Below are positions 30,006 through 34,456 of a stretch of 43,304 bases of DNA, in pieces. The translations under genes were made by a program, and so were the position numbers. Positions within the stretch are counted from its first letter, which is position 1; each line of letters opens with the position of its first letter. Origin of the DNA: Candidatus Nealsoniibacteriota bacterium (GTDB lineage: Bacteria > Patescibacteriota > Minisyncoccia > Minisyncoccales > PWPS01); contig PWHW01000008.1 in assembly GCA_003555075.1 (NCBI GenBank), positions 1-43,304 of the forward strand, read 5' to 3'. The notes below the pieces were generated by a model. It had not been told where the DNA came from and did not search any database. It saw only the letters and a program-made list of their open reading frames with translations.

Positions 30006-31670
30006 CTATACCTCTATTACTACCGGTAATACTATGGGCCTTCTTCCCGTTTTACTGAAAAGAAAGCTTTCTATTTTAGTTTTTATTTCCGGCTTTATCT
30101 CTTTGGCATCCTTTTTCTTCTTTCCTGCCTTGGAGATGATTTCTATCACTTTCTTTCTCACCTCTGTAAGAAGAAGTTGCGACTCTCTTAGGTAGATGAA
30201 CCCTCGTGAGATTATGTCGGGGGAATTCTTTATTTTCCTTGTCTTTTTATCTATTGCCACGATAACTACAAAGATCCCGCTTTCGGCCAATTCCATCCTA
30301 TCGTGTAACACCACTCCTCCTACATCTCCTATGCCCGAACCGTCTATCATAACGGGATTGGTGGGTACGGGCTTCTTTCCAATATGCAACTCATCTTTTG
30401 TAATACTTATTATGTGGCCGTTATCCGTTAATGCAATATTTTTCTTTGGGATCCCCTCTTCGGATGCGATCTTTGCATGATTTGCCATCATTGAATATTG
30501 TCCGTGCACGGGTAGTAAGAATTTCGGTTTCATTATTTTGATCATTTCCCTCAATTCATCTTCTTGGGCATGTCCTTTTGCATGTATGTCCATCATTTGG
30601 GAATGAAAGATATCGGCTCCTTGCCTCATTATGTCATCCTTAAGGCTTTGAACGGCTCGCTCATTTCCCGGGATAACAGAAGAGGATAATATAACGGTAT
30701 CTCCTTTTTTGAGACTGAAGAACCTGTGCTGACCGCTTAATATTTTCATTAAAGCGGCATTATCTTCTCCTTGCGCTCCTGTAGAAAGAATTGTTATTTG
30801 ATGATCATTATAGTCGAAAGCTTTCTCGGAGGGTATTATTGTTCCTTTCTTGCTCTTTATGATCTTTAGGTTCTGCGCGATCTCCAAGTTTGTCTTCATT
30901 CCATATCCTTCTATAACTACTTTTCTTCCGTATTTTTCCGAGAGGTCTATTACGTCTTGCACTCTGTTTATCAGAGAGGCGAAGGTGGAGGTGATGATGC
31001 GTCCTTTGGCTTTCTTGAAGATCTTCTCGAGATTTTCCGCAATGACCTTTTCTGATAGAGAGTGCCCTTCTGCTTCTGCTCCCGTGGAATCAGACATTAG
31101 CATCAAAACCCCTTTTGACCCTATTTCTTTTAGTTTTCCAAAGTTTGTAGGAGGGGCGTTTGTGGGAGTTGAATCAAATTTGAAGTCGGAAGTATGAACT
31201 ATATTCCCTACAGGAGTTTCTATCAAAAGCCCGTAATTGTCGGGAATATTATGATTTTGATGGAAGAACTCCACTGAAAAAGGACCCAGTTCCGCCCTTG
31301 ATCCATCCTTCATTTCATTTAGTTGCAGTTTTGGTTGACTGGGAAATTCCTCTTGCCTTTTTTGTGTAATTCCTAAAGTAAGAGGGGATCCGTAAAGAGG
31401 AGGATTTCCTATCTTATCCATAATGTAGGGTATTGCTCCTATGTGATCATAATGCCCGTGAGTCAGAACAACTCCTAAAACATTCCTCTTTCTTTTTTTT
31501 AAGTAAGCTATATTGGGGATTATATAATCCACTCCGGGGGTTTTTTCTTCCGGAAAGCTGAGTCCCATATCTATTATAAGGGCCTTTTCGCCCCATTCGA
31601 TCAGGGTCATGTTCTTTCCTACCTCTCCCAGTCCGCCAAGAGGGACTATTCTAAGTCTTTCTTCTTGCAT
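30006..31670 (-). CDS. rnj: Ribonuclease J
   Basis: RNase J is a metallo-beta-lactamase/beta-CASP nuclease with endo- and 5'-exonuclease activity, central to mRNA decay in bacteria lacking RNase E. The 554 residues show the family start (LRIVPLGGLGEVGKNMTLIEW), the zinc motif HGHYDH (71-76), the beta-CASP regions with SDSTGAEAEGHS, ASLINRVQDVID and HAKGHAQ, and a C-terminal domain. It lies downstream of tRNA-Leu on the same strand. Confidence 0.96.
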   Translation of the reverse strand: MQEERLRIVPLGGLGEVGKNMTLIEWGEKALIIDMGLSFPEEKTPGVDYIIPNIAYLKKRKRNVLGVVLTHGHYDHIGAIPYIMDKIGNPPLYGSPLTLGITQKRQEEFPSQPKLQLNEMKDGSRAELGPFSVEFFHQNHNIPDNYGLLIETPVGNIVHTSDFKFDSTPTNAPPTNFGKLKEIGSKGVLMLMSDSTGAEAEGHSLSEKVIAENLEKIFKKAKGRIITSTFASLINRVQDVIDLSEKYGRKVVIEGYGMKTNLEIAQNLKIIKSKKGTIIPSEKAFDYNDHQITILSTGAQGEDNAALMKILSGQHRFFSLKKGDTVILSSSVIPGNERAVQSLKDDIMRQGADIFHSQMMDIHAKGHAQEDELREMIKIMKPKFLLPVHGQYSMMANHAKIASEEGIPKKNIALTDNGHIISITKDELHIGKKPVPTNPVMIDGSGIGDVGGVVLHDRMELAESGIFVVIVAIDKKTRKIKNSPDIISRGFIYLRESQLLLTEVRKKVIEIISKAGKKKKDAKEIKPEIKTKIESFLFSKTGRRPIVLPVVIEV

Positions 31671-31735
31671 ATTCTGTTATTTATTTTCTTATTAATATTT
31701 ATTTTGAGTTAAATTCTTTGATCTTTAAAAGGTTG

Positions 31736-31819
31736 TGCCCGGGGCGGGATTCGAACCCGCACACCTTTTGAGGCATAGCGTCCTGAACGCTACGTGTCTA
31801 CCGGTTCCACCACCCGGGC
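31736..31819 (-). tRNA. tRNA-Leu (anticodon CAG)
   Basis: The minus strand folds into a complete cloverleaf. The acceptor GCCCGGG pairs with CCCGGGC, the discriminator is A, the anticodon arm TAGCG/CGCTA holds loop TTCAGGA, the variable arm is long (class II), and the T arm is GCGGG-TTCGAAT-CCCGC. Length is 84 nt. The 3' CCA is not encoded. It lies between the solute-binding protein and RNase J genes. Confidence 0.96.
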
Positions 31820-31868: not shown

Positions 31869-33863
31869 TTATTTGAGTATTCTTCGGGCATTAATGTGCC
31901 ACCTATTTATATCACTAAGTCTATCGGAAGGATTTGCAAGCTTTCTCTCTTCTATTCCTTCCACTTTATTTGACACGGAATATTTGAAGTAGGGACTATA
32001 AAGAGATATTGTTGGTGCTTCTTCCATTATCATTTCTTGTAGCTTGACTACTACCTCTTCTCCTTCTTTTTCTCCGTGCAGAATTTTTTCGAGCAGTTCG
32101 TCCGCTTCTTCGTTCTGGTATCCGGAGAGATTCAATCCGGGAGTTTCTGTTTTCGAGGAGTGCCACAAAGGAAAGGGATTGGCAGACCTTGAAAGCATTG
32201 TTCCGAAAAGAAGCACTTCAAAATCTCTTTCTCTTATCGTTCTTTCTTGAATATCCGAAAAGCTTTTTTCTTTTATTTCCACTTTTACTCCCAACCTCTC
32301 CCATTGCTCTTTCAATTCTTTTGCCGTTTTAACGAGCAAGGGATCCTCAAGGGTGGTAAGGGAGACTTCCAGAAAGATATCCTTTCCGAATAGATCCTTA
32401 CACTTCTCGTTCAGTTTTTTTTGAGTGCTTCCTGCAACCATTCCTGTGCCTCTGGTAAAGCCATGAGGGTCCAATATCTCTTCTCTGTACTTTTCCTGAA
32501 AATAATTAACAGCCTCCTTTGTCCCTTCGTCAAAGAATCCTGTCACCTCTCCTTGGGGGTAAAGATCCTCATCCTCTTCTCTGAGATATATGAAGCACTC
32601 TTGAAGCTTTCTTACTTCTTCACCTTGTGATTCTTCTTTCATTTCCTCCGTAAACTCAAAAGGATCTTCGGGAGTTCTCTTTCCATTCTCAAAACCTTCT
32701 TCTTCCAATATCTTTTTTCCTTTCTCTATATCGTAATGATAGCCATTCTCGGGTACGGGAAGATCGTAGAATTCCGCAAAAAATGGAGAGTTTACTACTT
32801 CACCTTTTTTTCCGTTCAATACGTTTTCCAGGATGGCCTCCTTGTCGGTAGCATGGGTCAGAGCTTTTCTTACTCCTTTGTTTCCTATGGCATTCTCGCT
32901 TTCCAGATTGAAGGTGACGGAAAAATATCGAGGAAGGTCAAAACTGTAGTAATGAGTTCCTCTTATATCTTCAAAGGAGTATTCCTTGGAATTTCCTGAA
33001 ATGGCGTATCCGTCTATTTCACCTCTTGCTTTTGCTCTGTAAACATCCTCTTCATTGTCAAAGAATACAAAGGAAACTTCGTCAATAAACGCCTCAAGCC
33101 CGTGATAATAAGGATTTCTCTCAAATGTGATGGATCTTATCTCTCCGCTTGGCCTTTTTTCAGTTTCCTTGAAACGATAAGGCCCCGATCCCACTGGTTT
33201 CATGTTGTTTATGGAATATCGGAAATCTCTTGGTGATAATTCTTTAAAGATATGTTTTGGTATTATTTTCAAGGTCAGGTTTTCGGGAAACACCGCTGAT
33301 GGTTGTCCGAGAGTGAATCTAATCTGGTGCTTTGATATCTTTTCCATACCAACACCGTCCCACTCTTGTCTGAGAGGACTTCCGAAATCAGGATTCAAGA
33401 TGGTCTTTACGGTGAACTTGACATCCTCGGATGTTATCTTCTCCCCGTCGGACCAGTATAGATCTTCTTTGAGGTGAAGATCGAATACCTTATGATCCTC
33501 TGTGTTTAGGTCTTTTGCAAGTCCGGGCATCAATTCACCCTCTTCGTTATAATAAAAAAGACCGTCAAATACTACTTCGGCAATATCTCTTTCTGTATCG
33601 TTTCCTATTGAATAAAGAGGGTTTATGGTGAGCCACTGAGTGGACTCTACTACTCCTTCACGATACACTCCCCCTTTTGTGGGTATTTCTTTAGTGTTCG
33701 CGTAATATAAAGCGAAAAGGAGATATAGGAATGAGACTATTACTATTGTTATAAGTAAAGAGAAAACAATCTTTTCTCTTTTGCTTAACACCTCTGGAAG
33801 TCTTTTCCATTGTTTTTTTGATGGCCATTTTTTTGGCCAGAGATTCGAGAATGTTCCAAGCAT
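31869..33863 (-). CDS. Membrane-anchored family-5 solute-binding protein with inserted peptidoglycan-binding domain
   Basis: The 664-residue protein has a basic cytoplasmic start, one membrane anchor (about 33-52) and a peptide/nickel-type SBP_bac_5 fold. Signs of that fold are AEVVFDGLFYYNEEGELMPGLAKDL, LHLKEDLYWSDGEKITSEDVKFTV and VGSGPYRF. Residues 416-487 interrupt it with a PG_binding_1-like domain: V.KLQ, then GEVTGFFDEGTKEAVNYFQ, then GTGMVAGSTQKKLNE. The SBP part resumes to the end. There is no lipobox. No ABC permease or ATPase lies in the window, so the transport partner is unknown. It may scavenge peptides at the wall or have become a wall-anchored surface protein. It follows secG by 22 bp. 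Confidence 0.88.
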   Translation of the reverse strand: MLGTFSNLWPKKWPSKKQWKRLPEVLSKREKIVFSLLITIVIVSFLYLLFALYYANTKEIPTKGGVYREGVVESTQWLTINPLYSIGNDTERDIAEVVFDGLFYYNEEGELMPGLAKDLNTEDHKVFDLHLKEDLYWSDGEKITSEDVKFTVKTILNPDFGSPLRQEWDGVGMEKISKHQIRFTLGQPSAVFPENLTLKIIPKHIFKELSPRDFRYSINNMKPVGSGPYRFKETEKRPSGEIRSITFERNPYYHGLEAFIDEVSFVFFDNEEDVYRAKARGEIDGYAISGNSKEYSFEDIRGTHYYSFDLPRYFSVTFNLESENAIGNKGVRKALTHATDKEAILENVLNGKKGEVVNSPFFAEFYDLPVPENGYHYDIEKGKKILEEEGFENGKRTPEDPFEFTEEMKEESQGEEVRKLQECFIYLREEDEDLYPQGEVTGFFDEGTKEAVNYFQEKYREEILDPHGFTRGTGMVAGSTQKKLNEKCKDLFGKDIFLEVSLTTLEDPLLVKTAKELKEQWERLGVKVEIKEKSFSDIQERTIRERDFEVLLFGTMLSRSANPFPLWHSSKTETPGLNLSGYQNEEADELLEKILHGEKEGEEVVVKLQEMIMEEAPTISLYSPYFKYSVSNKVEGIEERKLANPSDRLSDINRWHINARRILK

Positions 33864-33885: not shown

Positions 33886-34101
33886 TTACAAGAAGAGGTT
33901 GAAGAGTGCCAACACTATAAAAAGAGCACCTAATGCTATAGTAAAGGTGAACAGTGTTTTTTCCGACCCTCTTCTTTCGGTGTGAAATTCGCTGCCTTGC
34001 CCAAAAGCTGATCCCATTGCCGCTCCTCCTTGTTGAAGAAGGATCACTGCAATAAGAAGCACAGCGACGATCATTTGCATAAAAGGTAATATTTCTTGCA
34101 T
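33886..34101 (-). CDS. secG: Preprotein translocase subunit SecG
   Basis: The 71-residue protein has two membrane segments. Between them lies the SecG cytoplasmic loop: LLQQGGAAMGSAFGQGSEFHTERRGSEKTLFTFT, where the GSAFG and RRGSEK...T features are diagnostic. SecG assists SecYE in protein export. It begins 1 bp after the holin-like gene and is followed by a solute-binding protein. Confidence 0.93.
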   Translation of the reverse strand: MQEILPFMQMIVAVLLIAVILLQQGGAAMGSAFGQGSEFHTERRGSEKTLFTFTIALGALFIVLALFNLFL

Positions 34102-34102
34102 A

Positions 34103-34456
34103 TTATTTATTGTGTGAGAGGCTTGATGTAAGAAGTTCTAGTATCCAGATGATAACAGTAGTGTATACAAGTGGAAGCAGACCTTCTATTATCACGGGTG
34201 GATAAATTGCTTTTACGAACCAGACAATGGCAATATTAACAAAAAAAGAAAAAATTCCAAATGTTAGAACCCTAAAAGGAAAAGTCGCTATATCAAGTAT
34301 GGGTTTTATAAAAAGATTAATGAATCCCAAGCTCATTCCTGCATAGAAAAGATGCCTTACATCCTCTATCATTACTTCTTGCAGAAGATGGTCTGCTATA
34401 AAAAACCCCAAAACTCCCGCAGAAGCTTTAAGTAAAAAACCTCTTAAGAGCGACAT
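34103..34456 (-). CDS. Phage-holin-4_2-like small membrane protein
   Basis: The 117-residue protein has four predicted membrane segments. The middle carries a pattern typical of the phage_holin_4_2 (YvlD-like) family: G...GFINLFIKPILDIATFPFRVLTFGIFSFFVNIAIVWF. The family is widespread in chromosomes and its role is mostly unknown; no lysis function is implied. It is the first gene of the secG run and starts only a few nucleotides after a good promoter. Confidence 0.8.
   Translation of the reverse strand: MSLLRGFLLKASAGVLGFFIADHLLQEVMIEDVRHLFYAGMSLGFINLFIKPILDIATFPFRVLTFGIFSFFVNIAIVWFVKAIYPPVIIEGLLPLVYTTVIIWILELLTSSLSHNK

Follow-up and report, generated by a model that had tools for sequence, protein, structure and literature searches.

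The window analysed here, a stretch of 43,304 nucleotides, contains on its reverse strand a gene (31869..33863) for a membrane-anchored orphan solute-binding protein (SBP) of family 5 (SBP_bac_5), recognized by an open reading frame of 664 amino acids, a PF00496 match and a structural model. The gene lies just behind the only secG gene of its genome, and the fold of its product is interrupted by a module with a peptidoglycan (PG)-binding fold. Our favoured explanation, which we put forward tentatively, is that this protein is coupled to the Sec system and would act on exported polypeptides as a holdase or an export chaperone. As part of the same tentative explanation, the gene would be one copy of a protein that is common across the Patescibacteria and that was derived from the binding protein of an ABC importer. 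The Patescibacteria, a very large group of minute bacteria that depend on hosts, are considered to take up little through known pathways, and an SBP for which a PF00496 match was found in 270 of the 286 sampled genomes is easily taken as a sign of peptide uptake. Should the export role be true, the function assigned to a nearly universal gene would be wrong and the question of how Patescibacteria feed would become more pressing; these bacteria would also possess an export chaperone derived from a transport protein, a proposition that is directly testable.

Fold and membrane anchor of the binding protein

PF00496 matched the protein in two stretches, the better of which covers residues 110-397 (E 9.3e-63), with a score of 213 bits against a cut-off of 32.4, which places the protein in family 5. 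In a profile search the first-ranked solved protein was AppA of B. subtilis (E 9.2e-81), which was solved with a nonapeptide, and AppA was also the top Foldseek match (E 1.1e-36) of an AlphaFold2 model of the protein built from 11 sequences (mean pLDDT 80.4, pTM 0.65). In this model a helix at residues 28-56 is followed by a complete cluster-C binding-protein fold, which aligned over model residues of about 60-659 with CcNikZ-II (8efz; Z 35.7, 467 aligned residues, 3.5 A) and with AppA (1xoc; Z 35.2, 484 aligned residues, 4.3 A), so that the assignment to cluster C rests on Z values of about 35 to both. The model also aligned with MppA (3o9p; Z 32.1) and with B. subtilis DppE bound to murein tripeptide (8ay0; Z 31.1). 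The first part of the fold (residues about 60-397; 32673..33686, reverse strand) is delimited by the better PF00496 stretch and the structural alignment, and the remainder (residues about 498-661; 31881..32372, reverse strand), which carries the motif W567-H568-S569, by the AppA profile match, which resumes at strand 499. The original prediction had asked whether the insert leaves the ligand cleft intact; the model supports that both lobes are intact despite the insert, which proved to have a PG-binding fold, and the state of the cleft is judged from the alignment of the lobes rather than from its geometry. A broken or mis-assembled gene was ruled out by the single open frame and by the same architecture in relatives.

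The core of the protein is strongly conserved. Among 122 SBP sequences, D588, N578, L102, S569, R332, N319, G227 and W567 were each kept in at least 96%, and within the motif W567-H568-S569 the three residues were kept in 96%, 92% and 97%, respectively. Because these core residues are so strongly kept, the alignment argues for one binding function that would be shared across the 122 homologs. The window's genus deviates at some strongly conserved positions, with N562 in place of the D found in 96% of the 122 homologs and L595 in place of the R found in 93%, and these changes count against the Sec-side explanation.

The N-terminal helix (residues 28-56; 33696..33782, reverse strand) was delimited by DSSP analysis of the model and by hydropathy (19-residue Kyte-Doolittle 2.86), and the charge distribution, with six K/R residues before the helix and two after it, predicts an N-in/C-out orientation. 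A lipobox-like match was sought in the protein and none was found, so the protein is not a lipoprotein of the Gram-positive type, and the proposal of a membrane helix in place of a lipobox was borne out. A hydrophobic N-terminal segment was present in 119 of the 122 homologs, which indicates that anchoring in the membrane extends across the phylum and is not peculiar to the window. Furthermore, K/R residues were richer before than after this segment in 102 of the 122 sequences, and a lipobox-like match occurred in three of the 122. The segment KWPSKKQW (residues 12-19; 33807..33830, reverse strand), which is predicted to be cytosolic, was invariant in the 11-sequence alignment (A2); it was variable or absent in wider sequence sets and missing from most of the short forms of about 450-520 amino acids.

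Linkage to secG

The secG gene (33886..34101, reverse strand) encodes 71 amino acids, matches PF03840 with E 1.7e-12 (47.7 bits against a cut-off of 29.2) and lies 22 nt upstream of the SBP gene; it gave the sole SecG match in the genome (G000:C11:33901-34083). At 71 amino acids it falls below usual length limits for open reading frames and was absent from the original prediction, and its presence alters the reading of the locus. Upstream of secG is a gene for a small membrane protein of PF04020, named Phage_holin_4_2 in Pfam (34103..34456, reverse strand; E 8.3e-17). Downstream of the SBP gene are a tRNA-Leu (cag) found by ARAGORN (31735..31819, reverse strand) and a gene for RNase J identified by Pfam (30006..31670, reverse strand).

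The neighbourhood was compared at 120 distinct SBP loci, comprising the best 30 of the class survey (17 from the window's own order, including the window, and 13 others) and 90 from outside the class, of which 60 were our own pick among the better-scoring rows and 30 were the best of 32 weak-scoring genomes that we chose, neither set being random. SecG was encoded just upstream on the same strand at 116 of the 120 loci, namely at 17/17 in the own order, 13/13 in the rest of the class and 86/90 in the rest of the phylum (58/60 and 28/30 in the two sets). This linkage to a Sec gene, kept across lineages, is established within the sample. The four loci lacking an upstream SecG were L097, L108, L152 and L173; at the last of these, 465 nt of sequence are available upstream. 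The estimated gap between the secG stop and the SBP start had a median of 12 nt for the 116 loci and was at most 128 nt in 108 of them; in two of the 116 (L093 and L098) a frame of about 165 amino acids lies between the genes.

Within 4 kb of the SBP gene at the 60 better-scoring loci outside the class, SecG was found at 58, RNase J at 29, TrpS at 15, PF04020 at eight, a phosphoglucomutase-like neighbour at one and GroEL at none, a contrast that is somewhat exaggerated because the search for SecG used an iterated profile, whereas each of the other neighbours was sought with a single sequence. The difference between SecG and RNase J, TrpS or GroEL indicates that the secG-SBP pair outlasts its surroundings. 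At the 13 loci from the rest of the class, for which flanks of about 1.5 kb were available, RNase J was seen at one, and the PF04020 membrane protein was present at all 13, where it precedes secG. In seven relatives (L014, L015, L016, L018, L020, L034 and L036) the SBP gene is separated from the RNase J gene by one for a cupin-type glucose-6-phosphate isomerase (PF06560), which was not seen at the corresponding place in the window.

The inserted module

The module with the PG_binding_1 fold, about 90 amino acids long, spans residues 400-495 (32379..32666, reverse strand), with predicted helices at 415-428, 446-458 and 479-492. In the whole-protein scan, PF01471 matched residues 414-459 with E 5.4e-4 and 20.5 bits, just under the cut-off of 23, and in a six-frame search of the genome it matched the same stretch with 23.7 bits, above that cut-off. 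PF01471 was detected at E<=0.01 in all 17 members of the window's order, including the window (best 9.9e-10), which argues that the match is not due to chance; a chance origin of the signal was ruled out by this recurrence together with the predicted fold. When the insert was modelled alone, its mean pLDDT was 94.8, and it aligned with SleC (9h68; Z 12.7, 83 aligned residues, 2.3 A), SleB (6tci; Z 12.0, 73 aligned, 1.4 A) and DD-peptidase (1lbu; Z 11.0, 78 aligned, 1.9 A), although Foldseek's own E-values for the isolated insert were weak, the best being 1.9e-3. The profile match and the three-helix fold place the insert in PG_binding_1. An SBP_bac_5 protein with a PG_binding_1-like module inside it is what the original prediction had described, and the GTG-V-xST-KL ending that it ascribed to the module is present as well (GTGMVAGSTQKKL). 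Sharing a fold with PG-binding domains does not prove that the insert binds the wall, though it may do so. Cys423 and Cys488 of the insert are invariant in the alignment of the 17 order members (A3) and perhaps form a disulphide.

The loop between window residues 394 and 498 differed greatly in length among the loci. It comprised 90-111 residues in 17/17 members of the order, 12-18 residues at 13/13 loci from the rest of the class, and 0-21 residues at most of the remaining loci. At 21 of the 90 loci from the rest of the phylum it was 40 residues or longer, and PF01471 was sought in these long loops and found in none (0/21). Of the architecture that had been suggested for a survey of the candidate phyla radiation (CPR), the SBP core and the helix proved to be phylum-wide, whereas the PG-binding insert was seen, among the 120 loci, in the window's order alone (17/17). 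The class relative L020 has an SBP homolog that lacks the module and has an ancestral-like short loop, and this homolog, together with the short loops at the 13 loci from the rest of the class, shows that the insert is not what defines the protein. Judging from the aligned sequences, the loop is a plug-in site and the PG module a local addition in the window's order. In family f147 (L127-L133) the loop has about 165 residues, is probably beta-rich and matched no Pfam family at E<=0.05 or 0.1, and in families f131 and f149 it holds 60-96 charged residues. A genome outside the class (G358) that appeared to carry the same insert (match 6-661) was rejected, its 87-residue loop being a different charged sequence.

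The nearest relatives of the module include other proteins of its own genome, for instance a 561-amino-acid frame with 51% identity over residues 415-489, and with eight PF01471 matches in the genome the PG_binding_1 module appears to be widely used in the window's lineage. Seven loci of the genome with such matches (L003-L008 and L010) lie on contigs G000:C3 and C1; by eye, one PF01471 frame ends RlpA-like and another L,D-transpeptidase-like.

Importer permeases and co-occurrence with SecG

The genome of the window (609,564 bases in 12 contigs, listed as 100% complete) encodes one PF00496 protein, and PF00528 (BPD_transp_1), the permease family that was searched for, gave no match across the 12 contigs. 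A PF00528 permease located elsewhere in the genome was thereby ruled out, and the protein lacks the cognate permease that membership in an ABC importer would entail. As regards PF00528, the claim that no transporter accompanies the gene thus holds for the whole genome, which has no permease of this family to pair with it and no second PF00496 protein. PF00528 was found in 50 of the 237 genomes of the class sample and in 39 of the 286 genomes of the phylum sample (37 of them over the cut-off). In the class sample, the insert-containing model A1 detected the SBP in 232 of the 237 genomes, which is an upper figure since A1 may match the PG module alone, for example in G069, G208, G225 and G240 (E 1e-16 to 1e-10). 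One member of the window's order (G093) has two further, closely spaced PF00496 frames (C2:97716-98804, 562 amino acids, and 99438-100523, 574 amino acids), and despite these no PF00528 was found in it. A Microgenomates genome is reported to lack ABC importers that would take up sugars, amino acids or peptides (PMC7143001).

SecG was found in 271 of the 286 genomes of the phylum sample, with one match each except in G253, which has two. PF00496 was missing from 16 of the 286 genomes, SecG from 15 and both from nine (Fisher p 1.6e-9), a joint absence that missing sequence could also produce because the genes adjoin; five of the nine genomes are at least 90% complete. Seven genomes lacked the SBP alone, including all three sampled members of family f106 (G267, G285 and G302). 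Since f106 has SecG with no PF00496 match, the SBP would be dispensable there and can be lost while SecG stays, and f106 represents a possible loss.

PPIC-type proteins (PF00639), which we take to be of the PrsA/SurA kind, were sought in the window's genome and none was found. PF00639 occurred in one of the 23 genomes that represent the class in the phylum sample, compared with 136 of 286 genomes overall, and because it is so scarce in the class an alternative export helper would be useful there. Compensation between PPIC chaperones and the SBP was considered and rejected, as PF00639 was present in seven of the 16 SBP-lacking genomes and no pattern emerged.

Discussion

What is phylum-wide in this protein is the SBP core, the N-terminal helix and the place behind a single secG, not the insert, and this combination points to export rather than to nutrition. 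According to the Sec-side explanation, the SBP would be made together with SecG, its N-terminal helix would keep it fixed in the cell membrane, and its AppA-like peptide-binding cleft would face the outside beside the Sec channel. An AppA-like protein that is fixed in the membrane and produced along with SecG would be placed where exported chains emerge unfolded, and it could bind extended polypeptide segments leaving SecYEG, such that bound chains might be kept from aggregating or be handed on. In the window's order, the PG-binding-fold module may additionally hold the SBP or its clients near the wall. Chaperone activity among SBPs is reported for OppA, DppA, MBP, MglB and UgpB in two papers (PMC8144458; PMC7442780). 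Still more tentatively, the Patescibacteria may have converted the peptide-binding protein of an ABC importer into a dedicated, secG-encoded partner of the Sec translocon that receives exported polypeptides, after which lineages would have plugged different modules, such as the PG-binding domain, the probably beta-rich stretch of 165 residues and the charged stretches, into one loop. In the open-licence literature, with most subscription journals outside its scope, we found no paper linking this SBP to SecG, and the available passages on secG in Patescibacteria or the CPR contain no link of secG to a binding protein. One further paper that mentions secG with the CPR concerns nanohaloarchaea.

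Several other explanations have to be weighed. The original prediction had as its main idea a wall-tethered protein for scavenging peptides, and the AppA-like fold and the conserved motif in the cleft region would suit a protein that binds peptides from the host or the surroundings and delivers them to an uptake route other than PF00528. The cells are likely auxotrophic, some genomes in the phylum do have PF00528, and such proteins are commonly listed by authors among transporters; in several papers, substrate-binding proteins are treated as parts of transport, as with the peptide/nickel substrate-binding protein of Patescibacterium danicum. However, scavenging needs an uptake route, and because PF00528 is missing from 247 of the 286 genomes, and was found in 0/17 members of the window's own order, scavenging is not the best reading. 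Its constant partner, moreover, is secG and no transporter gene, and the PG module that would tether it is replaced elsewhere by short loops or other inserts, so that we consider this explanation unlikely. We also regard it as unlikely that the SBP is expressed with secG simply because both are constitutive envelope genes of a housekeeping operon, the SBP itself doing something unrelated in the envelope. Genes of differing function frequently share a conserved operon in bacteria, some of the loci retain PF04020, RNase J or TrpS beside the pair, and SecG occurs apart from the SBP in f106; the linkage could mirror such a shared operon, which counts against the Sec-side explanation. On the other hand, RNase J and TrpS were lost far more often than SecG, and one constant pair across 286 divergent sampled genomes would be unusual for mere co-expression.

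Two further possibilities start from the PG module and appear less probable. A binder of peptidoglycan peptides resembling MppA or DppE, with a part in sensing or in the turnover of the wall and with a local affinity increased by the PG module, would agree with the alignment of both proteins over the model and with the PG-binding fold in the window's order. We judge it improbable, since SBPs of other specificity align equally well or better in a comparison that concerns the overall fold only, and since the module is absent outside the order. Very improbable, in our estimate, is a host-contact role, in which the protein would be an adhesin exposed at the cell surface and anchored in both membrane and wall. 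In a study of Paceibacteria attached to archaea, proteins with PG-binding domains ranked near the top in expression among the extracellular proteins and were proposed to serve attachment, and substrate-binding proteins were highly expressed as well (PMC10936435); the former might include members of this SBP family. In contrast, the secG linkage holds in lineages lacking the module, and no repeat or adhesin-like extension was seen in the window's protein.

When compared with known systems, the window's SBP has the same fold over both lobes as AppA of B. subtilis (1xoc) and other cluster-C SBPs (PF00496), but it differs from these in having a transmembrane helix, no lipobox and a PG-binding-fold insert, and in being linked to secG in a genome lacking PF00528 rather than being encoded in an ABC operon. 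Its insert has the same three-helix fold as the PG_binding_1 (PF01471) domains of SleB, SleC, CtpB and the DD-peptidase 1lbu (Z 11-12.7), whereas it sits mid-way in a binding protein and carries the invariant Cys423/Cys488 pair. PpiD, PrsA and SecDF are translocon-side or post-export helpers with unrelated folds, and their likeness to the SBP would lie in the proposed role of a membrane-anchored helper of exported chains. OppA, DppA, UgpB and MBP, which are described as periplasmic chaperones in the papers cited above (PMC8144458; PMC7442780), belong to the same general class of proteins. They are soluble and importer-bound, whereas the window's SBP is membrane-fixed and secG-linked, and its functional likeness to them is hypothetical.
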